The notes below the pieces were generated by a model. The model worked only from the letters and a program-made list of their open reading frames with translations, was not told where the DNA came from and did not search any database. Source: an uncultured Cyclobacteriaceae bacterium (GTDB taxonomy: Bacteria; Bacteroidota; Bacteroidia; Cytophagales; Cyclobacteriaceae). From it: 64,000 nt of DNA. Positions 2,647-64,000 of this stretch are shown in pieces. The number at the start of each line of letters is the position of its first letter. Position 1 is the first letter of the stretch. Location of the stretch: contig CALSPM010000001.1 in NCBI GenBank assembly GCA_943788235.1, forward strand, positions 124,001 to 188,000. Reading direction: 5' to 3'. The position numbers and the translations under genes were made by a program.

Positions 2647-3818
2647 TTATTGGGAAGCAGCAACGATGGCAGTGGCAATGTCAGCCAAGTCCCAGCTGAG
2701 GTCATTGCGATTGAGTAATCTAAAATTACCCCCATCATCTCACACAATGGTCAGCAGTCCTCGTACGGAAGCTTCCTTTGCATATAAGTGGGCGTAATTA
2801 ATCCTACTTTGGAGGGGGTTGGCCTCTATGGTGCTCCATTCTCCCAATATTACGGGTCGATCCCGCTCGATGATCCATTTTTGTTTGATTTTGTCCAATT
2901 CAGCGGTCAGTTCAGATTTATCCCTTTCAGATCCCCAAGTGACGGTATCTTCTCCGGCAAATTGCCAAGGGAAATAGCTATGTAAAGAAATGATTATTTT
3001 CTTATCATCATTGGGGAGGGTCAATTCTTCCATCGCAATGGGAACGGTACTTGCAGCCCAAGTTGTGATCAGGATGTGCCTCTTTTCGTTATTTCCGCCC
3101 GTGGCTCTAATGGCATCTACGGCTGCTTTGTGAAAATCGTTTATTTAGCCACGGCCCTCAAATTTTCCCCAGACCATTCCTCAGTAATACCTTCAATTCG
3201 GGGCTCATTCAGGGTTTCAAAAATTAATGAATCGTTGTAATCTTGAAAGGAGTTGGCTACTTGGGTCCAAAGACTACTCAATATATCTGCATTCTCTTGT
3301 CCTTTTGAAGCCATTGGTTTTATCCAGCTATTGTCATGATTCACGTCAATTGTGAAATCCATTTTATTTTGAAAATCAAAATCTACTACTCTTTTTATTT
3401 CTGTGAGATAATGGGGATTTATTGTATGAGGGTCCATTTCAACTTGATTTGGACTCCACGTGATGGCTATTCTTAAAGTTGAAAATCCCATAGCTTTTAC
3501 CTCGTCAATCATCGCCTTAGAGGTAATGGGATTGCCCCAATAGGTCTGGTCTTTTGATTCTATATCAAAGCTATTTCCTAAATTCCAACCTACCCCCATT
3601 TCGGCAACTAAATCAAAGGAGCTGATATCACGAGCCGGTCCAATTCCTGGCAGTTGTGCTCCCGCCTTCTCAGATAGTTGCTCTGTGGATTCATTTAGAT
3701 CAAGAGATTTATTTTCATTATTGCAGGCCGCCAATTGCACCAAGAATAAAAGTGAAAGTATGTTAATGGCGAATGATTTTGGATCAAACGTATTTTGATG
3801 AAAAATAAAAGGGTTCAT
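2647..3818 (-). pseudogene. GH5-family endoglucanase-like lipoprotein, disrupted
   Basis: The gene would encode an exported beta-glycanase of glycoside hydrolase family 5. The first frame (3818-3141) starts at ATG with a signal peptide and lipoprotein-like box ending LAAC, then GWNLGN and the acid/base motif FETLNEP. It ends at TAA 3141-3143. Restoring one A to the AAA at 3144-3146 gives AKINDFHKAAVDAIRATGGN and continues in the lower frame through HSYFPWQFAGED and the nucleophile motif PVILGEWS. That frame then meets TGA at 2740-2742 where the family has Trp (TIV-stop-DDGG). Beyond it the homology continues (DDGGNFRLLNRNDLSWDL) to a TAA at 2647-2649. So there are two independent lesions: a homopolymer deletion and a TGG-to-TGA nonsense change. 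Loss of function is likely. The family assignment is firm; the substrate is not known. Confidence 0.88.
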
Positions 3819-4188
3819 ATTTCTTTATGTATTTTGATTATTGCCTTTTGAGAGTGGAATTCTATTTAAGCTAAACTACACTTTAGTAGGGGATAAAAAA
3901 TATTAGTTTCTGAAAACATCTTATTATGTAACGAACAATTAAACTGTTGATTTTAAATAGGAACTCATTTAATCATTTTTTTGGTTTAAATAATTAAGAA
4001 ATTTCCACTTATCCCAATCGATATTCAATCGATATGATTTCAGCTTTTGATTAATAGTTTACTTAGTCTATCGCATTTTTGCAATTTCTCAATGAAGGTT
4101 TTTATGGTGTAAGATCCTTTCCTTAAGATTTAAGGGTTGATCTTTTTATTTCGAATAATGCGGTGTTTATTTGCTCATAATTTCCTCT
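3819..4188. other. AT-rich intergenic region
   Basis: This 370-base gap lies between the divergent GH5 pseudogene and the TPR-like gene. It is AT-rich and has no open frame of note, no tRNA-like fold and no clear terminator hairpin. It presumably holds the promoters of both neighbours, but I see no full TTTG/TAnnTTTG pair that I would defend. Confidence 0.5.
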
Positions 4189-5316
4189 ATGCATCTTATT
4201 AAAGTTTTTTTTATTGCCTTATTTTTTCATGCAACCTTTCAAGCGAACAGTCAACATGAACTGTTTGATCATCCTGAAGCCATGAAGTTAGTGAGTAAAG
4301 GAACTGAAAAGATCTATCAACTCGATATGGATTCAGCTTTGTATTATATAAGGAAACTACATCAATTAATACCTAATCATCCTGTTATTCCTTCAATGGA
4401 GGCTTTTTTAATTCAATGGGAAAATATACCCATCATAGAAGGACAAATATTTGTTCGGTTCGAAGCAAAACTCAGAGAAGCGATTGCAGCAGCCGAAAAT
4501 CTTAACCCTTTAGACCCCTACGATGAAGAGGCCGTTTTTTTTGAATTGGCTACTCGGGGATTACTAGCAGAACATTATGCTGAAAACAACAAATATTTCG
4601 ATGCCATTAATCAAGCCAATAAAATGTACGGTTTGATTAAAAAAGGGTTTGACTTGGTTGACGATAATGCAGAGTTTTTATTCACAACGGGGCTCTACAA
4701 TTATTTTAGAATAATGTATCCTGAGAGGCATCCCATTTTTGCCCCAGTAGCTATTTTTTTTAAAAAAGGGGATAAAGAGTTGGGACTAGAACAGATGGTC
4801 ATGTCCACCGAGAAAGCCATAATTTCTCAGATCGAGGCCTCTGTTTATCTGTCTTATATTTATTTACGTTATGAGCAAACCCCAGAAAAAGCATTTATCT
4901 TGCTTCAAGGTCTGATCAAAAAATACCCAAACAATTCCTATCTTCTATCCAAATTTTTAGAAGCTGCTTACGCTACGCGACAATACGATCAAATCATGCC
5001 TTGGATAATTGATGCGCTGATCAATACAGATCAGATATATTATAAAATGATAGGTCACATCTTCAGAGGGACCTATCTTGAATTTGTAGAGAAAGAGACA
5101 AAAGAGGCTTATATTTATTATGGAATGGGAGTGAGATTTGGTAATGAAATATTAAATCACGGGGAATACTTTAAAAGTGTAGGCTATTTAGGACTTGGAC
5201 GGCTCAGTCAACAATTTGGCAATGTAAATACAGCTAAATCCTATTTTAATTTATGTTTGAAGTATGCCGAAACTGAGGATATTGAAAAGGCAGCTTATTT
5301 GGGCTTAAATCCATGA
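4189..5316 (+). CDS. Exported tetratricopeptide-like protein
   Basis: The function is unknown. The ATG at 4189 is preferred over an upstream TTG at 4171 because it gives a clean signal peptide (MHLIKVFFIALFFHATFQANS). The mature region of about 350 residues is helical and has TPR-like helix pairs rich in alternating Tyr/Ala/Leu, for example around residues 20-60 (MDSALYYIRKLHQLIPNHP) and near the C-terminus (GRLSQQFGNVNTAKSYFNL). The protein is likely periplasmic or outer-membrane associated. Its stop overlaps the start of the next gene by four bases (ATGA), so the two are coupled. No catalytic motif is seen. Confidence 0.75.
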   Translation: MHLIKVFFIALFFHATFQANSQHELFDHPEAMKLVSKGTEKIYQLDMDSALYYIRKLHQLIPNHPVIPSMEAFLIQWENIPIIEGQIFVRFEAKLREAIAAAENLNPLDPYDEEAVFFELATRGLLAEHYAENNKYFDAINQANKMYGLIKKGFDLVDDNAEFLFTTGLYNYFRIMYPERHPIFAPVAIFFKKGDKELGLEQMVMSTEKAIISQIEASVYLSYIYLRYEQTPEKAFILLQGLIKKYPNNSYLLSKFLEAAYATRQYDQIMPWIIDALINTDQIYYKMIGHIFRGTYLEFVEKETKEAYIYYGMGVRFGNEILNHGEYFKSVGYLGLGRLSQQFGNVNTAKSYFNLCLKYAETEDIEKAAYLGLNP

Positions 5317-5909
5317 AATATCTATTGATTTCTAATCAAGGTGAAGGGTTATATAAAGAGAAGGGGAGTAAATTTTTGAGTTTTGCCTATCTGCTTACTC
5401 ATGCGGGTCATACCAAAGATCTTATAGATGAAATAAAGACCCTCCATTTTGATGCCAATCATTGTTGTTACGCTTATTCATATGGTTTAGAGTCACCCAT
5501 GTTCGGAATTCATGATGATGGTGAACCCAAGCACAGCGCAGGAGATTCCATTTTAGGTCAGATAAAGTCTTTCAATGTATCCAATGCACTGGTCGTTGTA
5601 GTACGCTATTTTGGAGGGACTAAACTGGGCTTAGGGGGATTATCAAATGCTTATCGACAGGCGGCAGCGGCAGCACTTACCCAAGCGGCATTGGCGCCTT
5701 ATATTGAAAAGCGACAGTTTAAAATTTTTTACGATTATAATCAAACTAAATTATTATTATGTTTATTTAGAGATTTTGATATCGAGATTATAGAAAAGAA
5801 GTATTTGCAAAAATGTTGGATGCTGGTAGACGTGAAAAAGGAAGAAGCTATGGCATTTGAGGATCGCTTACGTCGTAATGCATTCCAATTAAACACTGAA
5901 ATTAAATAA
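5313..5909 (+). CDS. YigZ/IMPACT family protein
   Basis: This 198-residue protein belongs to the UPF0029/IMPACT family. The bacterial members (YigZ) have an N-terminal IMPACT fold and a C-terminal ferredoxin-like domain. The diagnostic motif DDGEPKHSAGDSIL is at about residue 68, followed by VVVVRYFGGTKLGLGGLS, both typical of the family. The molecular role of bacterial members is unsettled; the eukaryotic homologue regulates the eIF2 kinase GCN2. The start ATG overlaps the upstream TPR-like gene. The 3' end overlaps the convergent cupin gene by eight bases. Confidence 0.88.
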   Translation: MKYLLISNQGEGLYKEKGSKFLSFAYLLTHAGHTKDLIDEIKTLHFDANHCCYAYSYGLESPMFGIHDDGEPKHSAGDSILGQIKSFNVSNALVVVVRYFGGTKLGLGGLSNAYRQAAAAALTQAALAPYIEKRQFKIFYDYNQTKLLLCLFRDFDIEIIEKKYLQKCWMLVDVKKEEAMAFEDRLRRNAFQLNTEIK

Positions 5910-16335: not shown

Positions 16336-16881
16336 TCAGTTATTTAATGGCATTTTAGCTAGTAAATCATCGATATTTGATTCAATAATAATTAAATTTC
16401 TACTTTTAGCATCCAAAAACCCTTGGGTGACCATTTGGTCTAAGAAAGTGATAAATGCATTGTAATAACCAGCAATATTCAAAATGCCGCAAGGTTTTTG
16501 ATGATAACCTAATTGTAGCCAAGTGGTTATTTCTGTTATTTCTTCGAGCGTTCCAATGCCTCCAGGTAGGGCGATGAAACCATCTGATAATTGAGCCATC
16601 ATGGCTTTTCTTTCATGCATGGTCTTTACTATGTGCAGTTGCGTTAAGCCATTGTGCCCCACTTCCCATGCATACAGTTTTTCTGTTATAACGCCCGTCA
16701 CTTGACCTTTCAATGAAAGTACTTCATCCGCAACTACGCCCATCAGGCCAACGGATCCACCTCCATACACGAGATCATATTTATGGGCCACTAATTTACG
16801 TCCAACTGCTTGAGCCGATGATTGATAAATGGGATCAAAACCCATAGATGAGCCACAAAAAATAGCGATCTGCTTATTCAT
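16336..16881 (-). CDS. LOG-family nucleotide 5'-monophosphate phosphoribohydrolase
   Basis: LOG (TIGR00730) proteins hydrolyse nucleoside 5'-monophosphates, including cytokinin ribotides, to base and ribose 5-phosphate. The 181-residue protein has the Rossmann-type start FCGSSMGFDPIY, the YGGGSVGLMG turn, and the signature PGGIGTLEEITEITTWLQLG (about residue 107) with the catalytic Glu. In bacteria the physiological role is mostly unknown. The ATG overlaps the end of the M20 peptidase gene by eight bases, so it is translationally coupled to it. Confidence 0.9.
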   Translation of the reverse strand: MNKQIAIFCGSSMGFDPIYQSSAQAVGRKLVAHKYDLVYGGGSVGLMGVVADEVLSLKGQVTGVITEKLYAWEVGHNGLTQLHIVKTMHERKAMMAQLSDGFIALPGGIGTLEEITEITTWLQLGYHQKPCGILNIAGYYNAFITFLDQMVTQGFLDAKSRNLIIIESNIDDLLAKMPLNN

Positions 16882-18037
16882 TGATGAGTCGGTATATCAG
16901 TACCGCCGCGCGTTGGGTAAGTACCTCAAAGGTAGCTAGATCAATGGTTTCATCAGGTGTATGAGCCCCAGCTCCCATAGCACCCAATCCATCGATACAA
17001 GCCACATACTGTGCAACAAAAGAGACGTCTGCTGCGCCACGCTTTGAAGGATCCCATGCTTCTACAGGCCCATGTCCCAAATCTATGCTGACCTTACTGA
17101 ATTTTTTTAAGAGATCTTTATTTTCTTGAGTGGGGGGCATGGCAGGATAGCTATCGAAAAACGTTATTTTAGCTGAGGTTTCAGGTAGATTATTTGCTAC
17201 AATGGCTCGCATTTTTGCCCGAGTTATTTCTTTTTGTTCTTCTGAAATGAATCTTAGGTCTCCGTCAATGATCACTGATTGTGCCACAACATTGGTTTTT
17301 CCAAAGGCATTTCCGGTATTACTTGGCTCATCATAACCAATTTCAGTCCCTCCAACGATGATTCCAGGGTTAAATGTAAGATAAGTTTCACCTTTTAAGG
17401 TTTCATAGAAATCATTTAATATTCTTCCGGATTCAAAAACAGCACCAGCACCGACACCGGTCAAAAATATCCCAGCGGAATGCCTTCTTTTTCCTTTGAT
17501 TTCAACTTTCCAACCTGAAGAACCTCTCCGTGCCAGGGTAACATTATCAAATCCTGTTGAGTTTTCAAATCCCAGAGCAATGTCACTTCGCTGGCCTGCT
17601 TCAATCAGATCTTTACGGCTTAAAGAAATGGGTTTTCCTGTCAATTCTTCATCCCCAGTGAGAGCTACAATAATTTGAGCATCTGTCAATTCCCCTGCTT
17701 CATGAAGCGCTTTCAAGGCAAAAAGTAGGATGACATTGCCACCTTTCATATCGTTGGTTCCAGGACCTTTAACGGCACCATCGGGGAGTCGTTCCATTTT
17801 TTGAAAAGGGCTATTTTCAGGAAATACCGTATCCAAATGACCGATCAATAAAACTCTTTTCCCTTTATTTCCTTTGGTTTCAGCAAATAAATGTCCCGCC
17901 CGATTCAGGTTGGACAAATCAACCCACTTGGTATCCATCCGTATTTCATCAAATTGACCTTTAAAAAGCATTCCAACCTTTTTGACTCCCTCAAGATTCA
18001 TGGTGCCACTATTGATATTTACAGCTTCCTCAAGCAA
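16874..18037 (-). CDS. M20-family metallopeptidase, signal peptide lost by frameshift
   Basis: The open frame (387 residues from a TTG at 18037) holds a complete M20/CPG2-type zinc peptidase: LLIGHLDTVF and GTNDMKGG (metal ligands), TGDEELTG with the catalytic Glu, the dimerisation domain with RRHSAGIF, and the C-terminal GLGAMGAGAHTPDETID with the last His. Upstream the same frame continues without a start codon through KLSKKEKEIISLVHKNNDAA and a hydrophobic stretch SLIICFLLVQFLENPAQ, clearly the original signal peptide. The only ATG (18164-18162) is in another frame, so a one-base shift near 18150 separates the start from the gene. Translation from the internal TTG would give a cytoplasmic, possibly truncated enzyme. 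It lies between the M24 pseudogene and the LOG gene. Confidence 0.8.
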   Translation of the reverse strand: MLEEAVNINSGTMNLEGVKKVGMLFKGQFDEIRMDTKWVDLSNLNRAGHLFAETKGNKGKRVLLIGHLDTVFPENSPFQKMERLPDGAVKGPGTNDMKGGNVILLFALKALHEAGELTDAQIIVALTGDEELTGKPISLSRKDLIEAGQRSDIALGFENSTGFDNVTLARRGSSGWKVEIKGKRRHSAGIFLTGVGAGAVFESGRILNDFYETLKGETYLTFNPGIIVGGTEIGYDEPSNTGNAFGKTNVVAQSVIIDGDLRFISEEQKEITRAKMRAIVANNLPETSAKITFFDSYPAMPPTQENKDLLKKFSKVSIDLGHGPVEAWDPSKRGAADVSFVAQYVACIDGLGAMGAGAHTPDETIDLATFEVLTQRAAVLIYRLINE

Positions 18038-18188
18038 CTCGATGGCCGCATCATTATTTTTATGAACGAGTGAAATTATTTCTTTTTCTTTTTTTGATAG
18101 CTTTTGCGCTGGGTTCTCTAAAAACTGAACGAGTAAAAAGCAAATGATAAGTGATTCGAAGCATGCGTCTTAGATTTTAGATAAGTGA

Positions 18189-19542
18189 TCAGTCGTTGGG
18201 TGTAAGTATTCTTGGGATGGTCATTAGTTCTGTCTGTCTACCGTCAATGTAACGCACTGCATCACCATCAAAATAGGCATCTTCTTCCAGCATAATTCTG
18301 ATTTCTTTATTCCACTTCTTTTATGAAAGAGGCATTGTTGAGTTCTATTGAATAAGCCGTATGGGGATAAAGTGGATAATCTCCTGCAATCGGCACTCCC
18401 TCTTGCTGATCCCACATCCCGATGGTGGGACCGGCGGCATGTCCATGATAGCCTATAGGATGGGTGTAGATCGTAGGTTTTAATCCGATATTTTGAGCTT
18501 CAGTGAGAGATTTTTGCAAAATCTCATTTCCAGTTCTTCCAGTTTTAAAGTTATTTAAGAAAATATCTTGGACTTGATTCCCTTGTGCAAATGCTTTCAC
18601 CAAAAAATCAGGAGGGTTTGTTTCTCCTGATTTAAGAACGTATGCGTGTTGCTGGGTATCTGTATTAAGTCTCAAATAAGTGATTCCAAAATCAACATGA
18701 AGCAGATCACCTGGAAGAATAATTTCATCTTGAGGTCGATCAGAAAAAGATCTGAGGTGCTCAAAAGAGGCCTCATCTTTTCTTTGAATAGAGACCGAGG
18801 GATGAAACCAAGTGGTATAGCCCGCAGATCTTATTTTGTCTCGGTACCACCAGACTACATCATCCGTGGTGGTGACGCCTGGTTGTATCACTTTTTCTGA
18901 AAAACCTTCCGCAATGATTTGATGAGCCATCCTTACGATATTGGGATATACGATCATTTCGCTTTCCGTTCTTGTCTCAAGCCATCCAACGCCTAACGAC
19001 TCAGCACTGGTCAATCTTTTTACGTACTTATCTTCTAAGTTAGAGGTCAGCATATCATAGTGGGTCGCACTTAAGCCATCTGCATGACCAAAAGTGACCG
19101 ATTTATTGATCCCGATTTTTTTGGGATCTTTTTCTTTGATCAAAGCAGCCAATGCTTTCCACTGGTCAGGCTGAGTTTCCTTATCCCAGACTTTGCGAAA
19201 GAGGTCTCCAACAGCATACCTTGCCATAGCCATGGTTTCCAAAGGTTTTTGATCGCCGGGATCATAAATGACTAAAATCGTTGTACGTCTGGCCGATTGC
19301 CATGTGGAGGGGAGCATGGTTCTTAAAATGGGGTCTTCATTGTATTCACGTGCGATGATTAACCACATATCGATGCCCGTTCTTTTCATCAAATCTGGGA
19401 GTACTGTGGCCATGCGTTCTTGAAGCCAACGATCGACAATCACTGCCCGCTCTTTCATATCCAATGTTTTGGGCATATAACTGTTTTGGGCGTATGATGT
19501 AAAAAAAAGGGTTAGAATCAGGCTAAAAATTAATACTCTCAT
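18189..19542 (-). pseudogene. M24-family (Xaa-Pro aminopeptidase-like) exported peptidase, C-terminal frameshift
   Basis: The ATG at 19542 gives a signal peptide (MRVLIFSLILTLFFTSYAQ) and a creatinase-type N-terminal domain, then the M24 pita-bread fold with HVDFGITYLRLNTD, HPIGYHGHAAGPTIGMWDQQ and SIELNNAS. The frame ends early at TAA 18307-18309 after FIKEVE. Dropping one base at about 18313-18315 gives FIKEWNKEIRIMLEEDA and then YFDGDAVRYIDGRQTELMTI, ending at TGA 18189-18191, as expected for the family's C-terminus. A one-base insertion has therefore removed about 40 residues, including the conserved EDA segment that normally contributes to the active-site region. Function is probably lost or reduced. 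The gene begins a run with the M20 and LOG genes. Confidence 0.8.
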
Positions 19543-19964
19543 ATCTGTAGACAAGGTTTAAGATGTGGTTAAAATTGCATTATTAATTTCAATTGAAGAA
19601 ATAAATAACATCAAAATGAAATTTAAGGTAAGATAAGTTAGGAAAATGATTTTCTTGATTTTTGAGAGATCCATTCAAAGACTTAGTAATTTAATCACTG
19701 AGCATGAAATAGGATCTGTTTTTTTGGATTTAGTTTTAGAGATGAAGGTAGTGCAGCCCTCTTCAAAAAAAGTGGACTAAATTCATCACTATTCTTCGGC
19801 ATGATCCATTTCGTGAACACCAGAAATTTTGTCGAAGCAGGATTCTCGAAGATTTTCCCAAACCCCAAAAAAGAAGTATAATTTTTTTATTTAAAGAAGG
19901 AGATTCAAGGATTCTTTTTAGATAGATTTTTTGGCTATTTTTGTAATTTCTTGATTGTATAAAT
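19543..19964. other. Intergenic region with possible gene remnants
   Basis: No intact gene is seen in this 420-base gap. Two short coding-like plus-strand frames occur: an ATG frame at about 19646-19777 (43 codons, begins MIFLIFERSIQRL) and an overlapping frame ending at TAA 19879-19881 that reads DEGSAALFKKSGLNSSLFFG and onwards for about 45 codons without an ATG at its start. I cannot assign either to a family. Together they could be pieces of one degraded gene. The promoter of the cystathionine beta-synthase gene probably lies at the right edge. Confidence 0.3.
19936..19943 (+). promoter_or_regulatory. Putative -7 promoter element of the CBS gene
   Basis: TATTTTTG matches TAnnTTTG and ends 21 bases before the ATG at 19965, leaving a short leader. 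A -33 TTG at 19-base spacing is not evident, so this is a single-element call. Confidence 0.4.
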
Positions 19965-21338: not shown

Positions 21339-21367
21339 GCTGATTGGAAGTACTTGAAGGAATGATA

Positions 21368-24300
21368 ATGTTTAGAAATTTTTTATTAATTTTCTTATTG
21401 ACATCTATACCTTTTTTGTCTGGTGCACAATTGAGAATAAGTGAATTTATGGCCTCTAATCTAAGTGGTATTGAAGATCCTATGATGGGTCAAACCAGTG
21501 ATTGGATTGAGCTTTACAATGGTGGAACAACGACCCTTAATTTGTCTGGTTATTACCTTACAGATAACTTAAGTAAACCAGATAAATGGCCATTGCCAGC
21601 AGGTACGGTGATTGAATCAGGGGGCTATTTATTGTTTTGGGCAGATGGGGAAGCCGTTGTTGATCATACCAATTTTAAACTTTCTGCCAGTGGAGAATTC
21701 ATAGGAGTTTTCAACGTGGAATTTGATGTTGTTGATTCTATTACTTATCCGGAGCAGCGATCAGACATTTCTTATGGCAGAAATAATGATGAGTGGGTGT
21801 TCTTATGAAACCCCAACCCCAGGGGCCCAAAATGAAGCGATCTTTTATTCAGATTATGTAATGAGCGTACCTTTTTTTTCAAAACCAGGAGGTCTCATGG
21901 TGGGTGCCCAATCGGTCAAATTAAGCACAGATTTTGGAGGAGATATTAGATATACCCTTGATGGATCATGGCCTAATGAGCGTTCATTTCTTTATGAAGT
22001 ACCGATTATTTTTGAAGAAAACACCATTATTAGAGCAGCCATTTTTAAGTCTAATCAGCTTCCAGGACCCGTGAAAACACATTCTTATTTTGTAGATCCT
22101 GAATTCTATGAAAATGAGTTACCCGTCATCTCAATAGCAGGAGATCCCGGTGATTTTTGGGATAAAGACAAAGGGATTTATGTACAAGATTTTAAGCCTG
22201 ACTGGGAAATACCCATCAATATTGAGTTTTTTGAAAATTTCGGCGAAGATCGAGCCGTTTTTAATGAATTGGCAGGAACTAAAATTAACGGATTGATGTC
22301 CTGGCAGCTGCCTCAAAGGATGCTTGGTATTTATTTTAAAAATAAATACGGCAACAATAGTTTAGATTATCAACTTTTTGCGGATCGGTCGCGTAATGAG
22401 TTTCAAAATTTTGCTTTGCGTGCGAGTGGGAGCGATTGGGGGAAGGCATTTTTACGTGATCCTTTGAGTGCACGTGTATCTGAAGTGAATATGAAGCTAG
22501 CAAACAGTGGTTATCGTCCTGTAATCCTCACCATTAATGGGGAATATATGGGGATTCATAATATTAGATCTAAAATTAATAGTTCTTTTATCTCAGAACG
22601 ATTGGATCTTTCAGAGGATGAATTTGATATGATCGAGCATGGAGACTATGCTGAAGTGGGCGATTTAATTGCTTATAACTACTTGTTGGAAGTTTTGAGT
22701 CAAGATCTTTCTGATGAATCCAATTTTGATCAAGTCGAAGACCTTGTCAATATTGAAAACTATACTGATTATGTCATTATGCAGATGTTCTTGGTAAATA
22801 TATCTTTTAATCACAATGTCATGGCATGGAAGCCCAAATCAAGTGGGAAATGGGAATGGATTATGGCAGATTTCGATCGTGGTTTTCAAAATCAACATTT
22901 TTTATTAGAATGGTTTATTGAAGAAAATAATCTACTAATAGACCGCATGCTTACCAACGATGGGTTTAAAGCGTATTTTTTTAAAAGGTTTGCGGATCAT
23001 TTATACACTACTTTCAGCGCAGACAGGGTAAGTGAAATTGTGGCTGATTACAAGGGTGTCATTGACAAAGAAATGCCTAGGCATATTGAAAAATGGAAGG
23101 GGACACGTTCTGATTATTACGGAGAGGCTTTGTCTTCCTATGAGACATGGATTAAAGAAGTCGAAGATTTGAACAAATTTGTTGTTCAAAGAAGAGAAAA
23201 CGTTTGGCAAGATTTTGAAAATTATGGGTTTAGTGCTGGTGTCGAATTAGGAATAGGCGTATATCCAGAGGACGCAGGTACGGTCACACTAAACGGTATG
23301 CCTGTAGAAACCAACGAAGCCCTTTCTCGATATCTCGAAAATGTACCTTTTAATTTAGAAGCCACTCCCAAATTGGGTTTTGAATTTGTGGGATGGTCGC
23401 ATACTTCGGGGGGAGTCATTATCGATGCTAAAACTAATATTGAGGCGATTGCTACCGAAAACGTCAATTATTATGCCGTATTTGAGGCTAATGAAGTTTG
23501 CTTGATACCTTCATTAATAGATGGCACCACCGTGCTCAATAAAGAATGTAGTCCATACTACATGAATACGGACGTATGGATAAAAGAAGCGGCTGTTTTG
23601 ATGATTGAGCCGGGCGTGGAGATACGCATTGCAGAGGGTACTAATTTCATCGTTAATGGAGCCATCATTGCCGAGGGAAATTTGGAGGATGGGATTGTCT
23701 TTAAGGGCTTGGTAGATCAAGAGGCCTGGGGGGCTATTACTTTACTTAATACTACTGATACTTCTATTTTTAATTACGTGACGATTAAAGATGCTTCTGT
23801 AGGATCGGTTCCTACCCGAGACAAGGGAGCCTTGTCTTTATTTAAAGCCAATGTAAAGCTGAATCACTTGAACATTACCGATGTTCATAACAATCCTATT
23901 TTTGCGCAATATTCATGGGTCTCAATGGACAATAGTATTTTACAATCCAAAATCACAGGTGATTTAATTAATGTTAAGTACGGTAATGCTTTTATTCAAA
24001 ATACGACTTTTGTAGGGAATCTACAACCTGATACGGATGGTATTGACTACGATGAAATTTATGATGGAGAGATTAAGAATTGTGAGTTTTACGATTTTAT
24101 GGGATTCAATAGTGACGGTATTGATATTGGAGAAGGCTGTAAAAACATTAAAATTGACAGCGTTATCATTTATAATATTACTGATAAAGGTATTTCTGTA
24201 GGTCAAAAGTCTAGCGTTTCCATAAATCAAGCTTTAATATTTAATACAGGAATAGGAGTCGCGGTTAAGGATTCTAGCTGGGCGAGGATTAAAAATAGCA

Positions 24301-25299
24301 CTTTTTACAATAATCGTCAGGGTGTGGCGAGTTATGAGAAAAACCCAGGTATGGGCGGGGGAAATATGGTAGTCAATCAGAGCATTATTTCTAATGCGGC
24401 AAATACGCCTTTTTTGGTAGATGTATTTTCTACTTTAGTCATCAATAATAGTATTTCAGATACCGATGTAATGCCGGGCACTGATAACAGCCTAACCAAT
24501 CCCCAATTCAAAGCTCCTGGAGATCATGATTTTAGTTTGATGCCGAGCTCTCCTGCGCTGCTATATAACCCAACGAATGATCGAATTGGGGCACCGGATT
24601 ATGTGGTTGATGCGCTGAAGAATATTCTAATGGTACAAATCTATAACGATACTACAGGAATAGGTACACCAGAATTTATTGCTTTGTTTAATCCAAACTT
24701 GGAGCCGGTTGACTTGAATGGTTATCAATTTACAGATGGTATAACACATATTATCGAGGGAGCTCCTCTTGCTTGAACCTCAGGATACTATGTGGATTTC
24801 CGCACTTGAATCAGGGTTATATTGGCCGAGTACAACCAATGTCCAAGCTTGGTCGTCAGGTAAGCTGGCAGATGATGGGGAAAAAATTACTTTAGAAAAT
24901 AGCTATGGTATCGTGATAGACCATGTGGATTTAAGGTCTAATAATGGATGGCCTGTCTATGAAAATGAAGAAATACTATCTCTCAAAGAGGTATCAATGG
25001 ACAATCATATTGGGTCGCATTGGTACTATATAGAAAATAAAGCGGAGGTCATAGCTGGAGTTTCTACAATCGGTGTTTCTAATATCTATCCAAATCCTGC
25101 CAGAGATCGGGTAGACATCTTTTTGACATCATCTGAACCCCTTGAAATCGTCATTTATTCATTAGATGGTGCCATAGTAGATATCAAATTCACTCAGAAA
25201 GCTGATAAGGGTGAGGTACGCATTCCGTTAACGGGATATCCAAAAGGACTCTTAATATTTCAAATAGGTAATGAATACCGCCGGATCATTCATCGTTAA
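21368..25299 (+). pseudogene. Giant T9SS-secreted CotH/lamin-tail/beta-helix surface protein, broken by two frameshifts
   Basis: This gene of about 1,300 codons is now in three frames. Part 1 has a signal peptide (MFRNFLLIFLLTSIPFLSGA) and a lamin-tail domain (ISEFMASN, DWIELYNGG). It stops at TGA 21806-21808; removing one T at about 21803 continues as EWVFYETPTPGAQNE. Part 2 carries a chitobiase-type segment (YTLDGSWPNERS), a CotH kinase-like domain (GEYMGIHNIRSKI, WIMADFDRGF), a right-handed beta-helix region rich in N and I turns, and a second lamin-tail start. It ends at TGA 24774-24776, where a tandem CTTGCTTG at 24768-24775 looks like a four-base duplication; collapsing it gives GAPLEPQDTMWIS. 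Part 3 ends in a T9SS type A sorting domain (IYPNPARDRVDIFLTSSEP). It was probably a cell-surface or secreted protein and is now very likely inactive. Its partner genes are not evident. Confidence 0.88.
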
Positions 25300-25366: not shown

Positions 25367-25398
25367 ATACAAATAAATTTCGAACTCTTTGCTTGCAG

Positions 25399-38148: not shown

Positions 38149-39372
38149 ATGAAAAACAATTTATTAACCCTTTGCTGTTTTACTACTCTATCTATCTCTG
38201 CTCTTTTTCTCTCTTGCTCTGAAGATGATAATGTCAGGCTGGATGAAGGGAGTTTAATAAATCAAAATGATTTTACTGATGATCAAATCGATGGAGATAC
38301 TTCCGATTCTGTTGATACAACTGCCAATGATGCTGGGGTAGGAGAAGCATTTACCAGGGGTGCTATGCTTGTTAATTGGGCTGATAAAATAATTATACCT
38401 GCTTTCGAATCTTTAGTAAAAAATATGGATTCACTTTCTTTAGCGGCTAATGAATTTACAGATACACCGAACCAAGAAAACCTCATCAATTTGAAGCAAT
38501 CTTGGTTAAATGCTTATCTCGCATGGCAAACTGTGGATATGTTTGATATAGGTATGGCAGAAGAAATTACTTTAAGGAATTTTATAAACGTTTATCCGCT
38601 AGATGCTCAAGGAATGACAACTACGCTCTTGGCTGGTAATTATGATCTTACTTCCATAAATAGGCAAGATGAGCAAGGTTTTTCAGCCTTAGATTACCTT
38701 TTACACGGATTAGGAAATACAGATGAAGAAATCATAGCTTTTTATACGGATGAGACTAACGGAGGTAAGTACAAGACTTTCTTAACTGATGTTGTTGATA
38801 GAATGCATTCGTTGACTTCTATTGTTCTGGCAGATTGGAAAGAGAGTTATAGAGATGAATTTATAGAACGCGACGGAAATGCTGCTACAGAGTCTGTGAA
38901 CTCAATGGTTAATGATTATATATATTATTATGAAAAGTTTTTGCGAGCAGGAAAAGTAGGAATACCGGCAGGTGTATTTTCAAATTCTTCCTTAAGTAAC
39001 CGAGTTGAAGCTAGATATAGAGGAGGTGTTTCAAAAGAATTATTAATAAAAGCATTAAATTCAGTTCAAGATTTCTTCAATGGAGTTCATTTTAGTCAAG
39101 AAGATTCAGGTATGAGTCTTAAAGGCTGGATCAATTATCTTGAAGCTTCGGGATCGACTAATAACCTTGATTCACTCATCAATAACCAATTTGAATTGAT
39201 ACATTTACAATTAGAAAATTTGAATTTGGATTTAGCTCAACAGGTGGAGATTGATAATATTAAAATGCTTGAGACTTATGATATATTACAAAAAAATGTA
39301 GTTTTTATGAAAGTTGATATGCTTCAATTATTAGATATTACTGTTGATTATGTGGATGCCGATGGTGACTAA
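38149..39372 (+). CDS. Imelysin-family (M75/IrpA-like) lipoprotein
   Basis: The ATG at 38149 gives a lipoprotein signal ending ALFLSC, so an upstream in-frame TTG at 38089 is rejected. The 407-residue protein contains the imelysin helical-bundle fold: WADKIIIPAFESLVKNM, WLNAYLAWQTVDMFDIG, and GFSALDYLLHGLG at about residue 180, where classical imelysins have GxHxxE. The missing His and Glu suggest a non-peptidase, IrpA-like role in iron uptake, as in many Bacteroidota copies. Its stop overlaps the ATG of the HTTM gene (TAATG). The gene is intact. Confidence 0.85.
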   Translation: MKNNLLTLCCFTTLSISALFLSCSEDDNVRLDEGSLINQNDFTDDQIDGDTSDSVDTTANDAGVGEAFTRGAMLVNWADKIIIPAFESLVKNMDSLSLAANEFTDTPNQENLINLKQSWLNAYLAWQTVDMFDIGMAEEITLRNFINVYPLDAQGMTTTLLAGNYDLTSINRQDEQGFSALDYLLHGLGNTDEEIIAFYTDETNGGKYKTFLTDVVDRMHSLTSIVLADWKESYRDEFIERDGNAATESVNSMVNDYIYYYEKFLRAGKVGIPAGVFSNSSLSNRVEARYRGGVSKELLIKALNSVQDFFNGVHFSQEDSGMSLKGWINYLEASGSTNNLDSLINNQFELIHLQLENLNLDLAQQVEIDNIKMLETYDILQKNVVFMKVDMLQLLDITVDYVDADGD

Positions 39373-40722
39373 TGTTGATCAAGGTCTCATATTTTTCAAA
39401 AACGACATCAAGTGCGCCTCTAGCCTGTCTTGAGAATTTTTTTTGGCCTTTTAATGTTCATCAGCATCATCAGGTTTTGGGCATTGGGTTGGATAGATAA
39501 ACTGTATATTCAGCCAATTTTTTTTTTCTCATACCACGGATTTGAATGGATCAAGCCGCTGGGTAGCCTGACTTACCTTTTATTTTTCATTTGTGGGATA
39601 TCCGCACTGTTCGTAGCTGTAGGTCTTAGGTACAAGTGGGCGATAATTACTTTTTTCCTTTCCTTCACTTATATCGAGCTGATGGATAAAACAACTTACC
39701 TCAACCATTATTATTTTGTCAGTGTACTGAGTTTTTTGTTGATTTTTTTGCCTGCAGGCAACTACTTTTCATGGGACACCCTTAAAAAACCCAGGAAGTT
39801 ATTTTTGCAGATTCCTCAGTGGAACATCGACGCCATTAAACTGCTGCTATGTATAGTCTATTTATATGCTGGATTGGCTAAATTAAATTCAGAATGGTTG
39901 TTTCAAGGGATGCCACTAAAGATTTGGTTGCCTACCAAAGACTATCTCCCAATGATTGGATTTTTATTTCGCTATGATTGGATGATCTATTTATTTGCGT
40001 GGGGGGGAGCATTATATGATTTAATTATTCCATTTTTACTTTTAAACAGAAAAACTAGAGGTTTTGGGTTTATGATGGTTGTTTTTTTTCACTTACTAAC
40101 TGCGATTCTTTTTCCCATTGGGATGTTTCCTTACCTCATGATCTTTAGTGCATTGATCTTTTTTAATTACCAATTTCATCAAAAAATCATTGATAGACTG
40201 CTTGAGATCTTGAATATTAAAAATCGTAAAATTCATCCAATCCAAGATACATCTTTTCGGCACTCACTGATAAACACAGCTAAAATAATCATTTTAGCCT
40301 TGTTTTTTTTAATTCAAATAGGCCTTCCTCTTCGATATGTACTTTATCCAGGTAATCTTTTTTGGACCGAGGAGGGATATCGTTGGTCTTGGCGGGTAAT
40401 GCTTATGGAGAAGGCGGGATTGGCGCAGTTTAAGATTGTTGACAATGCATCTGGAAGTTGGTTTTATGTTAATAATGAAGATTTTTTAACTTCTTTTCAG
40501 GAAAAACAAATGGCAACACAGCCAGATTTCATACTCCAATATGCCCATTTTTTAAATGAATATTTTTCTCAACAGGGCATGACAGATCTTAGCATATTTG
40601 TAGATTGCTTTGTAGCTTTGAATGGTAGAAAAAGTACCAGATACATAGATCCCAAATTTGATTTAACGAAAGGATACGAGTCTTTTGCACACAAGTCATG
40701 GATATTGCCTTTCAATGAATAG
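39372..40722 (+). pseudogene. HTTM-domain membrane protein (gamma-carboxylase-like), frameshifted near its start
   Basis: The real start is the ATG at 39372 within TAATG, reading MLIKVSYFSKTTSSAPLACL. One base too many at about 39431 then shifts the frame, and the protein resumes as RIFFGLLMFISIIRFWALGW in the frame open from a TTG at 39430 to 40722. The 430-residue main part is intact: about seven membrane helices, the vitamin-K-carboxylase-like HTTM region (NHYYFVSVLSFLLIFLPAGN; FSWD), and a soluble C-terminus. HTTM proteins regularly accompany imelysin and TonB receptors; their reaction is unknown. The TTG could still restart translation, so partial function is possible. The end overlaps the receptor gene by eight bases. 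Confidence 0.75.
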
Positions 40723-43189: not shown

Positions 43190-43752
43190 GTGTCCTTTTA
43201 TGCGATGAGGGGAGATTAGGAACTCATTATGACAAAGCGAGTACCCAATTGGTATTAAAAAGTCCATTTAATAGGTGTCTTACTTAGGAGATTCCATTGC
43301 CCATTTTGTGTTCTGCAGGCCAAGCCTAGTAGTCAATTATTACATAACTCTGTGCTCTTAGCGTTACAGGTTTTTGCTTTTTAAGTGTCATTCCTTACTT
43401 TACTCATATAAAAAATACACTACTATTATTTGATGTCTTTAGCTTCCTTTACTTGTCAAAGTTATTAAAAGATTTGAAGTACTATTTTCATTGAGATCCA
43501 TAGTCAGGAATGCAGCTATGCTTAAATCAATTTCTAGTGCCTTAAGTTCTTTGATATGTCTTTGTTGGGAAAGTGATGTTGAGGATATTTCAAAAGGGTT
43601 TCGGTATTATCAAGAATTTTTATTTATCTTAAACAAGGGTACATTCTTACATTATTTTTTTTCATTTAAATAATATTTACCGTCCTAAATATTCATGAGA
43701 AACTATTACATGGACACATTTGTTAAAGATAAATAAAGATTAGGTTAAGTTC
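43190..43752. other. Intergenic region, no gene recognised
   Basis: The gap is 563 bases. It has one short plus-strand frame (43491-43673, 60 codons) whose composition does not resemble a known family; I do not call it. No tRNA, terminator hairpin or clear promoter pair was seen. It may hold the promoter of the BspA-like gene. Confidence 0.45.
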
Positions 43753-44511
43753 ATGAGGTTATTTAAAAGAATTTTGCTGTTGTGTCAATTATGGGCTATG
43801 GCCATTTTTTTTAACTGTAGGGAAAGTGAATTAAATCCTGATATATATTTTAATACTCTTGAGACTCCGGTATATCTATCAGTAAATGAAGTTACCATCA
43901 AAGCGTCTGATGCCGCCGTTGTTGGACAGACTTACCTATTAAATAACGTTAGTTATGTCGTGGTAGATTCAGTTATGCTCTATAGTATGGTCAAAAACTA
44001 TGTTGATAGCATTATACCTGTTACGACTTTTATTACAAATATGAATCAACTCTTCATCAGAGAAGAAAGATTACTAGCTAATGAGTTTCCAATAATGGAT
44101 ATCAGCTCATGGGACGTGAGCAACGTAACCGATATGTCTTTTATGTTTTCTGGCATTGGTCTTAATAGTTTTGTTGGAGATATCAACGATTGGAATGTTA
44201 GTGGTGTAGCTAATATGTCGTTCATGTTTGATGATAATGAAAAATTTAATCAAGACATTAGCAATTGGAATGTTCAAAATGTAATCAACATGCAAAGAAT
44301 GTTCAGTCAAGCCAATGCCTTTAATCAAGATATTAGCAAATGGAATGTCAGTAAAGTAATAAATATGGAAAGTATGTTTAAAAGAGCCACTTCTTTTAAT
44401 CAAAATCTTAATCCATGGGAGGTCGGAAATGTAATTGAATGTAATAATTTCAGCTTGCATGCCGATAAATGGATAGGAAAGAAGCCCATTTTTATCAATT
44501 GCTCAGAATAA
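43753..44511 (+). CDS. BspA-like (DUF285) repeat lipoprotein
   Basis: This 252-residue protein starts with a lipoprotein signal (ending IFFNC). The second half consists of DUF285/BspA-type leucine-rich-like repeats of about 32 residues: WDVSNVTDMSFMF, WNVSGVANMSFMF, WNVQNVINMQRMF, WNVSKVINMESMF and a degenerate WEVGNV. BspA-like proteins mediate adhesion or protein contacts on the cell surface. It is shorter than most and ends without a T9SS domain. It is monocistronic. Confidence 0.85.
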   Translation: MRLFKRILLLCQLWAMAIFFNCRESELNPDIYFNTLETPVYLSVNEVTIKASDAAVVGQTYLLNNVSYVVVDSVMLYSMVKNYVDSIIPVTTFITNMNQLFIREERLLANEFPIMDISSWDVSNVTDMSFMFSGIGLNSFVGDINDWNVSGVANMSFMFDDNEKFNQDISNWNVQNVINMQRMFSQANAFNQDISKWNVSKVINMESMFKRATSFNQNLNPWEVGNVIECNNFSLHADKWIGKKPIFINCSE

Positions 44512-56035: not shown

Positions 56036-57025
56036 ATGCCAAAAAATATAACAATCCTTTTTGTCGATGACGAACTTACTTCCATTGAATATTTCAAAAC
56101 ACCATTTTCATATAAGTAAAACATCTTAATTGTACAATCAGGAGAAGAGGGCTTGGATATTTTGCAGAAACACGAAAATATAGTTTTGATATTGACAGAT
56201 CACAGAATGCCGCAGATGACTGGAATTTCTTTTTTGATAAAATCCATGAAGTCATCGTCTGATAGTATGAGAATTCTAATTTGGGGTCATTCAGAAAATG
56301 AGCTGGTCATGAGGGCTATTATTGAATGACATGTTTTCTATTTTATTGTAAAACCATGGTCTTTTATTGATATGTCTGCAGCCATTAAATATGCTCTAGA
56401 AACCTTCAACTTAAGAATAACTAACAAGAAATTGAAATTATTGAATGAACAAAAGGAGCATGAAAATATTGAGGTTCAGTTAAAAAATCTTCAGACTCAA
56501 ATTAATGCTTATTTTCTCTTCAATTGTTTGACCAATTTATATGCATTGATTGTTGAGAATGAATCTGCGCAGTTTTTTGTAAAAAAGTTATCTCTTATGT
56601 ATCGGTTTATGCTCGAACAAAAGGTGGATCAGTTGTCAGATCTCGAAAATGAGCAAAGAGTAATTGAAAATTATTTTTATCTTCAAAAAGTTCGTTTTGA
56701 AGAAGGACTTTTCGTGAGTATTCAAGTTTCAGAGAATCTTAAGGAATTCAAAATGGCCGCTGGCACTTTATTACTAATGGTTGAAAATGCCATTAAGCAT
56801 AATATTATTTCCCAGAAGCATCCGTTACACGTGCTGATCAAGAGCGATCAAAATTTTTTATACGTGATCAATAATTATCAACCCAAAAAGGATGTAATCT
56901 CAATGGGCGTAGGACAGCAAAACATCATCAAGAGATATGCTTTGTTCACTGATAGATTACCTGAGTTCTAAATGAGTAAAAAGCATTATTCTGTTAAAAT
57001 TCCTTTACTAAAACAAGCGTCAACT
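56036..57025 (+). pseudogene. Degraded REC-LytS-type histidine kinase
   Basis: A single frame from ATG 56036 encodes a receiver domain (ILFVDDE; LTDHRMPQMTG with the Asp; FIVKPW with the Lys), then a His_kinase/HATPase module of the LytS/YehU type. TAA at 56117-56119 and TGA at 56327-56329 interrupt the receiver, and TAA at 56969-56971 interrupts the end (RLPEF-stop-MSKKHYSVKIPLLKQ). In the kinase signature NAYFLFN the phospho-accepting His of PHFLFN is Tyr (codon TAT at 56510-56512), a single C-to-T change. The N-box ENAIKHN is kept. No stop remains before the downstream regulator's ATG. With three stops and a lost His it cannot signal. Confidence 0.88.
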
Positions 57026-57785
57026 ATGTATAACATAGTAATTATTGATGACAAACCACTCGTTGCCAACCATAATGAAAAGCTTCTTAACTCAATGAAT
57101 ACCGATACCCAAGTGGTTGCAAACTTGGATACCGTGTTAGGTGCCATTATTGGTTTAATCAAAATACATGCGATTTGATTATTTCTGACGTGCAGTTGGG
57201 TGATGGGTTAAGTTTTGAAATTTTCCAAGCAATTAATAATATAAAACCCATCATTATGGTCACGGCATACCACCAATATGCTGTAAGAGCTTTTAAAGAA
57301 AATAGTGTTGATTATTTATTGAAGCCCGTGACGAAAGAAAAACTCCATTTAGCTATTCAGAAGTTTCAATATTCCAGAATTAAAGGATTAGATATTGAAG
57401 GAATTTTAAAGGGATATCTCTTCAACAAAAAGACTTATTAACGACGCTTTTTGGTGAATACTGGAAAAAAATTAGATTCAATAACGGAAGATGAAATAGC
57501 AAATTTTTATTCAGATGAACGTTATGCTATTTTAGCAACTCATGAAGGGAAATTCATTTTGAATCAAACTATGATGGAAATACATACAAAATTAGATCCG
57601 ACTCTTTTTTTTCGTATCAATAGAAAAATTATCACTTCTTTGCTAGCGGTGGATGACATATAACTGTTTTTTAAAAGTAAGATTCATCTTAAATTAATTC
57701 CAGCGCCTTCTTTTTCACCCTCAGTAGTTGTGACCTCATTAAAAAAGAACAGTTTTGAAAATGGCTTAATGGTCATCAAGAATAA
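57026..57785 (+). pseudogene. Degraded LytTR-family response regulator
   Basis: The partner of the kinase remnant. It starts at ATG 57026 (MYNIVIIDDKPLVANHNEKL), loses frame at about 57120-57166, resumes as TCDLIISDVQLGDGLSFEIF with the phospho-Asp and VDYLLKPV, and meets TAA at 57439-57441. The LytTR DNA-binding domain (IANFYSDERYAILATHEGKF; LFFRINRKIITSL) is ended by TAA at 57661-57663. It continues as KIHLKLIPAPSFSPSVVV, and a further shift plus TGA separate the last residues (KWLNGHQE, stop at 57783-57785). At least five lesions make loss of function certain. Confidence 0.88.
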
Positions 57786-60090: not shown

Positions 60091-60266
60091 CTTAAATTTA
60101 TCTAATTCTGTCTCAGATAAATTCTAATGTCATCAATTATCTCTAGTTATATTTTTTTCAGATCAGTTTGAAACAATTATGTTAGCTTTATGGAAATGGC
60201 AATGTAATATGGATCAATTTTGTAGTTTCAATGCTTCAGCCGATCACTTTCCTGTTCCTAGTCTTT

Positions 60267-60548
60267 TCATATTAAAGAATACGCTCGAGGCTTGTCTGCA
60301 AACCAAACTTTCACCTCGGTCTAAGTCGCTTTAAAAAACAAAGACGCTTTGTATTTATTTAAATGGTCTACCGATAGCCAATGGCTGTGCGTATAGAAAA
60401 CATTGAATTGATCTTGATCTCTATATAAATGAATAGATTCACAACCTTTAAAATCAGAAATTTTACTTTTGATATTTTTAAATAATTTCTGAAACTCTAA
60501 GACTTTTTCTTCTTGAAATTCCATACGGACAATTCTCAATAGCATCAT
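60267..60548 (-). pseudogene. Antibiotic-biosynthesis-monooxygenase-like (ABM) domain protein, nonsense mutation
   Basis: This is a small ferredoxin-like ABM-fold protein (MMLLRIVRMEFQEEKVLEFQ; GCESIHLYRDQDQFNVFYTH). The open frame ends at TAG 60321-60323 after FFKAT, but the family pattern continues in the same frame: TEVKVWFADKPRAYSL, to TGA at 60267-60269, giving 93 residues as expected. The TAG stands where homologues have Trp (TGG to TAG). About 18 C-terminal residues are lost, including the last strand. The gene overlaps the SAM hydrolase gene by four bases and was presumably translationally coupled to it. It is probably inactive. Confidence 0.8.
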
Positions 60549-62349: not shown

Positions 62350-62776
62350 GATTGTAGCCGCAGATTCAGCTGTATTATTACATAAATCTTATGAAATTAG
62401 ACAATGTGTTTTCGTAAATGAACAAGGTGTTCCCGAAGCTATTGTACACGAAGATGCGAAAAGTTTGGCTCATTATTTTGTTGCGATAGATGAGGATGGC
62501 AATGCCTTGGGTACTGCACGTTGGAGGAAAACTTCTCAAGGCGTGAAGCTAGAAAGGTTCGCAGTATTGCCAGTTTATAGAAATAAAGGATTAGGTGCAG
62601 ATTTGTTAAGATCCATTTTGGTAGATATTAAAAGTAAATTCGGATCGGGAATACTTGTGTATTTAAACGCGCAATTGGAAGCCATAAATCTTTATGCCCA
62701 CCAAGGATTTTTACCGATAGGACCGAGATTTATAGAAGCAGATATTATGCATCAAAGGATGTCTCAAATAACTTGA
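62339..62776 (+). CDS. GNAT-family N-acetyltransferase
   Basis: The ATG at 62339 gives a 145-residue protein typical of the ElaA-like GNAT group. Motifs are IRQCVFVNEQGVPEAIVHED near the N-terminus, the acetyl-CoA loop LPVYRNKGLGADLLRS (Q/RxxGxG/A type, Gly-Leu-Gly kept), and LNAQLEAINLYAHQGFLPIG. The acceptor is unknown. It overlaps phoH by 11 bases in another frame and is likely co-transcribed. Confidence 0.88.
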   Translation: MNHKIVAADSAVLLHKSYEIRQCVFVNEQGVPEAIVHEDAKSLAHYFVAIDEDGNALGTARWRKTSQGVKLERFAVLPVYRNKGLGADLLRSILVDIKSKFGSGILVYLNAQLEAINLYAHQGFLPIGPRFIEADIMHQRMSQIT

Positions 62777-62866
62777 GTATTATAAGTGTCACTTCATTAC
62801 ATTCTTTAATTAAAATAACGAGATTTTTTCATTAGAGAGTTATATTGTTTAAAACTGTATAACTGA

Positions 62867-64000
62867 ATGTATCTATGGAATAACTATCCTTCTTTGCGCT
62901 ATTTATTGAGTTTGATCCTCGGCATATGGATCTATGATTTTCATTTAGAAATTACACCTTATTTTACCCTTTCAATATTTAGTGGGCTAGCGATTCTTTA
63001 CTTCTGGCTTGTTGCGAGGAAGTATTCCTTATTTCTCAGTGGCATTACTATTTTGTTAATGATTACTTTGATTGGATTGGATATGGCATGGCCTATTACA
63101 CCGATGAGCGCAAAGATGTAGATCATTTGAGTCATGTTGATATTCAGTAAATAAGTTCTTTTTCAGGTTGGATCGTAGAGAATCCTATTGAGTAAGAAAA
63201 ATATGTCAAATATATCTTTCGAATAGATTCGGTGCTCCTGGGAGTTCGATCAATTAAAAGGGAGGGAAAAATTCAACTTCATGTACGGAAAGAAATACAC
63301 AAAAAGGTTAGGTCTTATGGTTCTTATCTCTATGTATCTGGAAGTTTATTCTCCATTAAATCCTCTAAAAATCCTATGCCTTTTGATTATGCTCAATACT
63401 TAAGCCGCCAACATATCTATTATCAGGCTTATGTGGGAGATGATGACATTATGAGTATCGATAGCTCTTCGCGTTTTAGTATTCGTGCTTTGGCATTTGA
63501 AATGAGGCATAAGGCAAAAGTCTTATTTCAAAATCAAATTAGGGATGATCAGTCAAGGGCTGTAGTAGTTGCCTTAGTACTTGGGATTAAGAATTATTTA
63601 GATCAAGAACTAAAGTCAGCTTGTGCTACTTCAGGAACCACGCACGTCTTAACTGTATCAGGATTACACATGGGTATTATTTTTCTAATTTTTAGGGTTT
63701 TTTTGAAACCCTTAAGAAATATATATTTAGGTCGCTATTACTATGTTATCGGGATCATATTGGGACTATGTCTTTATGCTTTTGTCACTGGTCTCGTGCC
63801 TTCAGTAATGCGTGCAACTACCATGTTTTCTAACGTGAGTTTGAGCGAACTGAATCATCGGACTTCTAATATTTATAATTCGATCGTACTGTCCGCATTC
63901 GTATTGCTTTTGATTGATCCAAATATGATTTATGATGTTAGCTGTCAGCTTTCATTTATTGCTGTGACAGGGATTGTTATTTTTTTTCCTCTGTTCTATA
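62867..64000 (+). pseudogene. comEC: comEC/rec2 DNA-uptake channel gene, N-terminally degraded, runs off the window
   Basis: ComEC transports single-stranded DNA across the inner membrane during natural transformation. The N-terminal membrane helices read from ATG 62867 (MYLWNNYPSLRYLLSLILGI). One base (a G) is missing near 63079-63080, after which the homologous frame GYGMAYYTDERKDVDHLSH is used. That frame then meets TAA at 63148-63150 and TAA at 63193-63195. From 63196 to the window edge it is open and carries the ComEC core: THVLTVSGLHMGIIF, TGLVPSVMRATTMF and CQLSFIAVTGIVIFF. Three lesions lie in the N-terminal OB-like periplasmic region. A start within the remainder could in theory make a shorter channel. 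The 3' end is not visible. Confidence 0.85.

Follow-up and report, generated by a model that had tools for sequence, protein, structure and literature searches.

The Window and Its Interrupted Genes

The DNA described here is a window of 64,000 nucleotides, bases 124001-188000 of contig 1 of the genome of an uncultured Cyclobacteriaceae bacterium (GCA_943788235.1; 3.25 Mb in 14 contigs, 98.5% complete), hereafter G000, which was compared with nine relatives of the same genus, G001-G009. Judged against open copies from the same genus, the window contains 20 lesions that are spread over nine genes at eight loci, among them comEC, the gene of the DNA-uptake channel, at its right-hand end (Table 1). 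An earlier note on this DNA had listed at least eight loci with about 19 lesions, and this inventory holds up; intact orthologues do occur in relatives, with open copies for all eight loci. Very probably, the window combines real pseudogenes left by the turnover of dispensable genes, at the core of which lies the loss of natural transformation, with lone one-base insertions that are either recent mutations or, slightly more likely, errors.

The named genomes that match the same locus are metagenome-assembled genomes (MAGs) and carry the label Flammeovirgaceae or Cyclobacteriaceae; one is called 'UBA4465' and bears a Fram Strait isolate name, and judging by the titles the habitat of the others looks like sea water. 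Five relatives align with much of the window at a nucleotide identity of 82-94%; the contig of G008 covers only the first 7.4 kb of the window and that of G001 about the first 37 kb. The comparison genomes are partly incomplete, with completeness of 67-99%. In the Fram Strait project to which the name of G003 points, Illumina reads were used as well as PacBio reads (PMC8254474).

The interrupted genes fall into two classes. Class A consists of GH5, the histidine kinase, the LytTR regulator, ABM and comEC, which together hold 15 of the in-window lesions; each of these genes has at least two stops and all except the kinase and ABM have frameshifts too. Class B consists of the M20 leader, M24, the CotH protein (with two lesions) and HTTM, and its five lesions are all lone one-base insertions. 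The class A genes are genuine pseudogenes. In the comEC, kinase, regulator, comF and comM genes of G000 taken together, the private nonsynonymous and synonymous substitutions number 152:70, versus 618:920 for all shared-region genes (Fisher p = 3e-15, with comparison sets that differ somewhat between genes), and in these multi-lesion genes selection is relaxed. In katG (outside the window), M24, M20, HTTM and CotH the count is 60:98 and does not differ from that of the rest (p = 0.61). GH5, ABM and coaBC lie outside these counts. The relaxed selection that the earlier note had suggested for the decayed loci as a whole is thus found in the multi-lesion genes but not in those with single insertions. 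Values of pN/pS given below refer to private changes.

Table 1. Interrupted genes of the window; positions are counted from its first base.
Gene	Position	Strand	Class	Lesions in G000
GH5 cellulase-family pseudogene	2650..3818	-	A	1 frameshift and 2 stops
M20 peptidase	16877..18163	-	B	one-base insertion at ~18150 (codon 5-6), within apparent signal peptide
M24-like peptidase	18195..19554	-	B	one-base insertion at ~18315, last ~42 residues lost
CotH/LTD surface protein with T9SS sorting tail	21344..25296	+	B	two one-base insertions, 21805 and 24767
HTTM / vitamin-K gamma-carboxylase-like	39372..40719	+	B	one-base insertion at codon 19 (~39426)
LytS-type histidine kinase pseudogene	56036..57016	+	A	3 in-frame stops; pN/pS 0.61
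LytTR response-regulator pseudogene	57026..57768	+	A	2 frameshifts and 2 stops; pN/pS 0.81
ABM monooxygenase-like gene	60258..60548	-	A	2 stops near C-terminus, first at 60321-60323
comEC pseudogene, DNA-uptake channel	62867..64000, on to ~64952 outside the window	+	A	first frameshift near 63071

The remainder of the window is largely free of lesions. The comparison covered 51 gene groups of 120 aa or more with some overlap with it. In 42 of them G000 has no lesion between codon 55 and the last codon, and the other nine are the lesion loci (comEC makes up two groups, and ABM is too short to be counted). Flags close to the start in six of the clean genes (FAN1 at codon 17, glyoxalase at 11, 26 and 55, DUF4856 at 16, a thrB-like gene at 17 and 32, phoH at 7 and cbs at 2) are read as uncertain start sites and were dropped; the HTTM and M20 lesions lie close to the start too, and they presuppose the start codon used by the relatives. 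Matches touching contig ends and proteins shorter than 120 aa were left out of the gene-group survey, the totals of which include over-extended reference starts (e.g., nuoI, glyoxalase and S41), and we rely on named genes instead.

Among the class A genes, GH5 is open in G007 (392 aa from stop to stop) and G008 (406 aa) and broken in G005, and no matching stretch was found in G003 and G001. The kinase is an open frame of 328 aa in G002, and its G007 copy, divided between two contig ends, is free of lesions; the regulator is open in G002, G003, G007 and G006. ABM reaches its normal end in G007 and G002, its frame is also broken in G003, and it is apparently broken in G008 and G001, where tblastn matches are split.

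Loss of the Transformation Genes

Over its whole length, comEC of G000 carries two frameshifts and three stops, of which one and two, respectively, lie inside the window, and one of its lesions is a 5-bp insertion. The gene is open in the syntenic position of G007 (699 aa) and G002 (698 aa) and interrupted in G003 (three frameshifts and four stops), G008 (four and six) and G006 (one and one before the contig end). The lesion sets are lineage-specific: lesions are never identical between genomes, and the frameshifts that G003 and G008 both have at codon 278 are of different size. Only about the last 62 codons are matched in G001, no match was found in the fetched stretch of G004 and G009, and no copy was found in G005, whose contig ends short of the locus. 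The private pN/pS of the dead copies is 0.49 (G000), 1.12 and 1.10, versus 0.16 (G007) and 0.27 (G002) for the open ones; the underlying nonsynonymous and synonymous counts are 127:45 and 116:125 (p = 2e-7). For the clean neighbours of comEC in G000 (M42, phoH, a SAM hydrolase-like gene and GNAT), pN/pS is 0.16-0.37.

In the family as a whole comEC is nearly always present. A comEC domain was found in 188 of the 196 sampled genomes that are at least 90% complete, and in 184 of 190 outside the genus. The gene is not intact in five of the six genus genomes of this sample, versus no match in 6 of the 190 others (p = 1e-6, or 8e-6 with four weak outside matches also classed as not intact; since the genomes are not independent, p is descriptive). 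For the family matches of comEC and dprA, absence of stops was seen among the matches listed.

Three further genes, unlinked to comEC and to each other, have met the same fate. The dprA locus is on another contig of G000, where its flanks lie on a single 809-kb contig with a 245-bp interval piece between them, and no match to dprA was found in this genome. The gene is missing between conserved flanks in G000, G005, G001 and G009, open in G003 and G007, and interrupted in G008 (four frameshifts and four stops) and G006 (one and one); the contigs of G002 and G004 end before the locus. Within the family sample, 192 of the 195 genomes at least 95% complete have dprA (190 of 192 outside the genus), and G000 is one of the three without it. 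comF has three frameshifts and four stops in G000, two and three in G005, and one and two in G008, is cut out between its flanks in G001, and is open in G002, G006 and G007; the locus lies outside the G003 and G009 assemblies, and in G004 the contig ends. Its pN/pS is 2.29 in G000 (with only three synonymous changes) versus 0.19 in G007. comM has two frameshifts and one internal stop in G000, is broken in G008, is open in G003, G005 and G007, and is divided between two contig ends in G006; no full-length match was found in G001, G002, G004 and G009. Two side observations belong here: contig 35 of G006 carries the comF locus twice in inverted orientation, possibly as an assembly artefact, and the comM of G005 (contig 28) is open, yet its private nonsynonymous and synonymous counts are 33:14, as if selection were already relaxed.

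All four of these genes are thus broken or deleted in G000, and only G007 of the ten genus genomes shows all four intact. The control gene rsgA is without internal stops in eight of the ten and was not found in G002 and G004, both of which are 81% complete. Transformation of Riemerella anatipestifer, also a member of the Bacteroidota, requires ComEC, DprA, ComF and RecA (PMC8459023), and ComM has a key role in the transformation of diderms (PMC11472951). The failure of these four unlinked genes in G000, together with the decay of the set at different sites in most relatives, makes the loss of transformation the coherent core of the decay; judging from gene content, the cells would have lost natural transformation itself.

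The losses can be placed on a tree built from seven proteins, ((((G000,G008),G005),G003),G007) with (G001,(G004,G009)), G002 and G006 outside, in which genes are missing in several genomes and two nodes have support of 56 and 62, the others 87-100. By this placement, genes were lost in at least three parts of the tree: the G000-G003 clade, the G001/G004/G009 clade and G006. A dead comEC next to open copies of dprA and comM suggests for G003 that the uptake channel was lost first in this genome. Among the genomes judgeable for both genes (G002 is not), none has lost dprA and kept comEC. In G006, by contrast, comF has outlasted comEC and dprA, both of which are broken, and the whole set therefore does not follow one order of loss. 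It is possible, although we would not put it at even chances, that at least three lineages convergently and separately dismantled parts of the comEC-dprA-comF-comM set, single sisters keeping it, and that LytS/LytTR may belong to the competence programme.

The kinase-regulator pair, 5 kb from comEC, is lesion-free only where comEC is open, in nine of the nine genomes judgeable for both (for comEC no judgement is possible in G005; the lesion-free kinase of G007 is the divided copy mentioned above). As a functional link this was set aside: the intervening ABM shows the same distribution, with open copies in G007 and G002 and broken ones in G000, G003, G008 and G001, and linkage or general retention in G007 and G002 explains the concordance about as well.

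Several points weigh against the proposed loss of transformation by turnover. The small counts behind pN/pS are noisy: the clean M42 of G003 has a value of 1.12 with one synonymous change, and values of 0.47 and 0.55 were obtained for other clean neighbours, phoH of G008 and GNAT of both G003 and G008, respectively. The failure to find comEC in G004, G009 and G005 and the comF locus in G003 and G009 may reflect assembly gaps. Finally, the losses in G000, G003, G005 and G008 could share one unseen first hit, and the firm minimum is about three separate losses.

On the favoured reading, GH5, LytS/LytTR, ABM and comEC are part of a turnover of dispensable genes that is still going on in this marine genus of the Cyclobacteriaceae. 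Transformation may bring little net benefit in these lineages, in which case mutations in its genes would drift to fixation. A selective advantage of losing transformation is possible.

One-Base Insertions: Error or Recent Mutation

The class B genes look quite different. HTTM, M24 and M20 are long open frames aside from their single insertion sites, and the CotH protein is encoded by a single open reading frame (ORF) of 1316-1317 aa in G001, G005 and G007 and is heavily decayed in G003. G003 and G007 have an M24 ORF of 97-98% identity, so any odd active site would be common to them; no relative of M24 was found in the PDB at E<=0.001. One-base differences private to G000 versus all available relatives lie at ~18150, 18315, 19555, 21805, 25347 and 39426, and at 24767 where the sequences can be aligned. 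Three indels that were considered as further lesions, the 19555 insertion (M24), the one at 25347 (racemase) and the one at 53182 (S41), precede the respective start codons and were rejected.

The same kind of change is found in two genes outside the window. The only copy of coaBC in G000 (contig 1, about -72885 to -71688 in window coordinates), which we take to be an essential gene of CoA synthesis, has a one-base insertion at codon 37 in a conserved stretch. katG (contig 1, about -6510 to -4274 in window coordinates) has two one-base insertions in G000 and is open in G003 (745 aa), G005 and G007. Because coaBC and katG are hit by the same type of insertion, error is at least as likely an explanation for class B. 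Private one-base changes in non-coding DNA are also biased: insertions and deletions number 10:2 in G000, and 16:19, 12:14 and 8:10 in G003, G007 and G005 (p = 0.025 versus the 20:24 of G007 and G005, and 0.027 versus 36:43 with G003 included; blocks starting at 86300-87900 of the joined stretch, a divergent gene, were left out, the outer 20 bases of genes were taken as non-coding, and divergent-gene rows remain in G003). The earlier note had reasoned that random error should hit housekeeping genes equally, an argument that is weakened by the coaBC insertion and by this bias. Homopolymer error as such is unsupported, since the five coding insertions that were counted (two in katG, one in M24 and two in CotH) all differ from both neighbouring bases and are not of the slippage type.

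Error as the source of class B has evidence against it as well. Behind its insertion, coaBC retains an open frame of 369 codons, and re-initiation would be conceivable there. Private non-coding indels relative to substitutions show no excess in G000 (13/224, versus 53/488, 31/402 and 22/254 in relatives, from a four-genome alignment of 87.9 kb of gap-free columns). All five class B insertions avoid the 42 clean groups, and four of the five lie within one 7-kb stretch together with two further pre-start indels. On the whole, residual sequencing or assembly error seems slightly more likely for class B than very recent mutation.

We consider it rather unlikely that every lesion is real and recent, with the class B genes lost too late to show relaxed selection. 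The absence of class B insertions from the clean groups and the unremarkable indel rate would fit, as would the independent decay of CotH in G003; an insertion tolerated in the only coaBC and an insertion bias unlike that of the relatives would not.

Decay across the Genus and the Question of Lifestyle

The decay is neither unique to G000 nor confined to secreted and sensing genes. Within the same 224-kb region, flagged gene groups number 18 of 153 in G000, 21 of 130 in G003, 8 of 73 in G005 and 8 of 127 in G007, start-site noise included. The interrupted genes of G003 are those of an M1 peptidase, a sortilin-like protein, an oxidoreductase, a polyprenyl synthase, a racemase, CotH, the kinase and comEC, and GH5 and UPF0029 are broken in G005; some of these interruptions may again be single-base errors. 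Two of these genes deserve mention on their own. UPF0029 (contig 16 of G005, ortholog of window positions 5313-5906) has several private frameshifts, in G005 only, and the Asp/Glu racemase-like gene (window positions 25337-26272) is 99.6% identical to that of G007 over one block and has three frameshifts in G003.

The earlier note had confined the decay to secreted, sensing and uptake genes and had read the housekeeping genes as clean. The restriction is not borne out: the ABM product is presumably a small cytosolic-type enzyme; several genes of the window whose products are exported by family type (TonB receptor, imelysin, YceI, DUF4856 and S41) are open past their start regions; and G000 has interruptions in katG, coaBC and a phytoene-synthase gene just outside the window. 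The clean state of housekeeping genes is borne out within the window by the 42 clean groups; outside it, coaBC is interrupted by the class B type of insertion.

Relaxed selection throughout the genome of G000 after a change of lifestyle, for example to host association, as the note had suggested, is improbable. It would account for real multi-lesion pseudogenes with raised pN/pS and for the size of the genus genomes, which at 1.8-3.2 Mb as assembled are below most of the family sample. The relatives, however, also carry broken genes in the region, with the same genes decaying at different sites, and the region-wide private pN/pS of G000 (0.185) lies inside their range (0.169 in G003, 0.142 in G007 and 0.202 in G005). 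Strong genome reduction against relatives is not seen either: G000 is the largest assembly of the genus sample, G001 and G008 being about equal to it once scaled by completeness. Moreover, the named relatives appear to come from sea water, and the UBA4465 clade is reported among the SusC-expressing MAGs active in North Sea blooms (PMC10877868). Host association finds no support.

That every lesion is a sequencing or assembly error is hardly credible: the single insertions in coaBC and the constrained katG and the insertion-biased one-base changes would agree with it, but the stops by substitution, the 5-bp insertion in comEC and the neutral-like pN/pS of class A where counted do not, nor do the lesions at other sites of the same genes in separately assembled relatives or the lack of dprA between conserved flanks. 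Programmed +1 frameshifting that keeps the single-insertion genes in use can practically be dismissed, because, even with most class B shifts being of the same sign, the distance from the shift to the next stop in G000 ranges from 1 to 32 codons with no common motif visible, and the extra base is absent from relatives.

Comparison with Known Systems

What leads bacteria to keep or to lose transformation is still unsettled and has been much studied in pathogens. In Piscirickettsia salmonis, comEC is reportedly interrupted by transposable elements (PMC12955456). The likeness to the present case is the inactivation of comEC across a lineage; the difference is that small indels, stops and deletions are seen here, no search for insertion elements having been made at the loci. 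The genes concerned are those known from Riemerella of the same phylum, and G007 has ComEC, DprA, ComF and ComM open as well, unlike G000 with its four broken or deleted genes.

Variation within the species and loss of transformation are described for Legionella pneumophila and Acinetobacter baumannii; the non-transformable strains of A. baumannii are on shorter branches, which was read as counter-selection, and this is not so in L. pneumophila (PMC11472951). Both species resemble the genus described here in the repeated loss in separate lineages and in that some strains have broken competence genes, but changes in rate rarely depend on core genes there, and the non-transformable lineages of A. 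baumannii look short-lived (PMC11472951). In most of the genus lineages examined here, core genes are broken or deleted, and as many as ten lesions are found in one comEC copy. A survey of ComEC places a loss within Bacteroidetes in Blattabacterium endosymbionts, which are of the same phylum and have also lost the uptake channel (PMC6299819); the genomes considered here differ in being of ~3 Mb, in coming from apparently planktonic bacteria and in showing intermediate stages. Among the papers listed in searches of the open-access literature, none reported comEC loss in Cyclobacteriaceae, most subscription papers being outside the scope of the search.

An uncultured marine genus in which every stage of the loss is found, from fully open to broken to cleanly deleted genes, and whose genomes are partly ~91-94% identical over the window, allows the order, rate and consequences of the loss to be read from sequence. 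If the convergent abandonment of transformation is true, its causes would become testable by comparing G007-like with G000-like lineages. The window also illustrates how easily lone one-base insertions in an assembly can be taken for adaptive gene decay.

Minor Observations

The median identity of G000 to G005 is 94%, and it rises to 99.2-100% in 11 successive blocks, a tract of ~5.8 kb at about -3800 to 2000 relative to the window (contig 1, ~120200-126000). This tract is a recent recombination between lineages both of which have lost transformation genes. The gene of a DUF285 repeat protein (window positions 43744-44508) lies in a stretch that G000 has in common with G003 and that G005 and G007 lack at the syntenic position.

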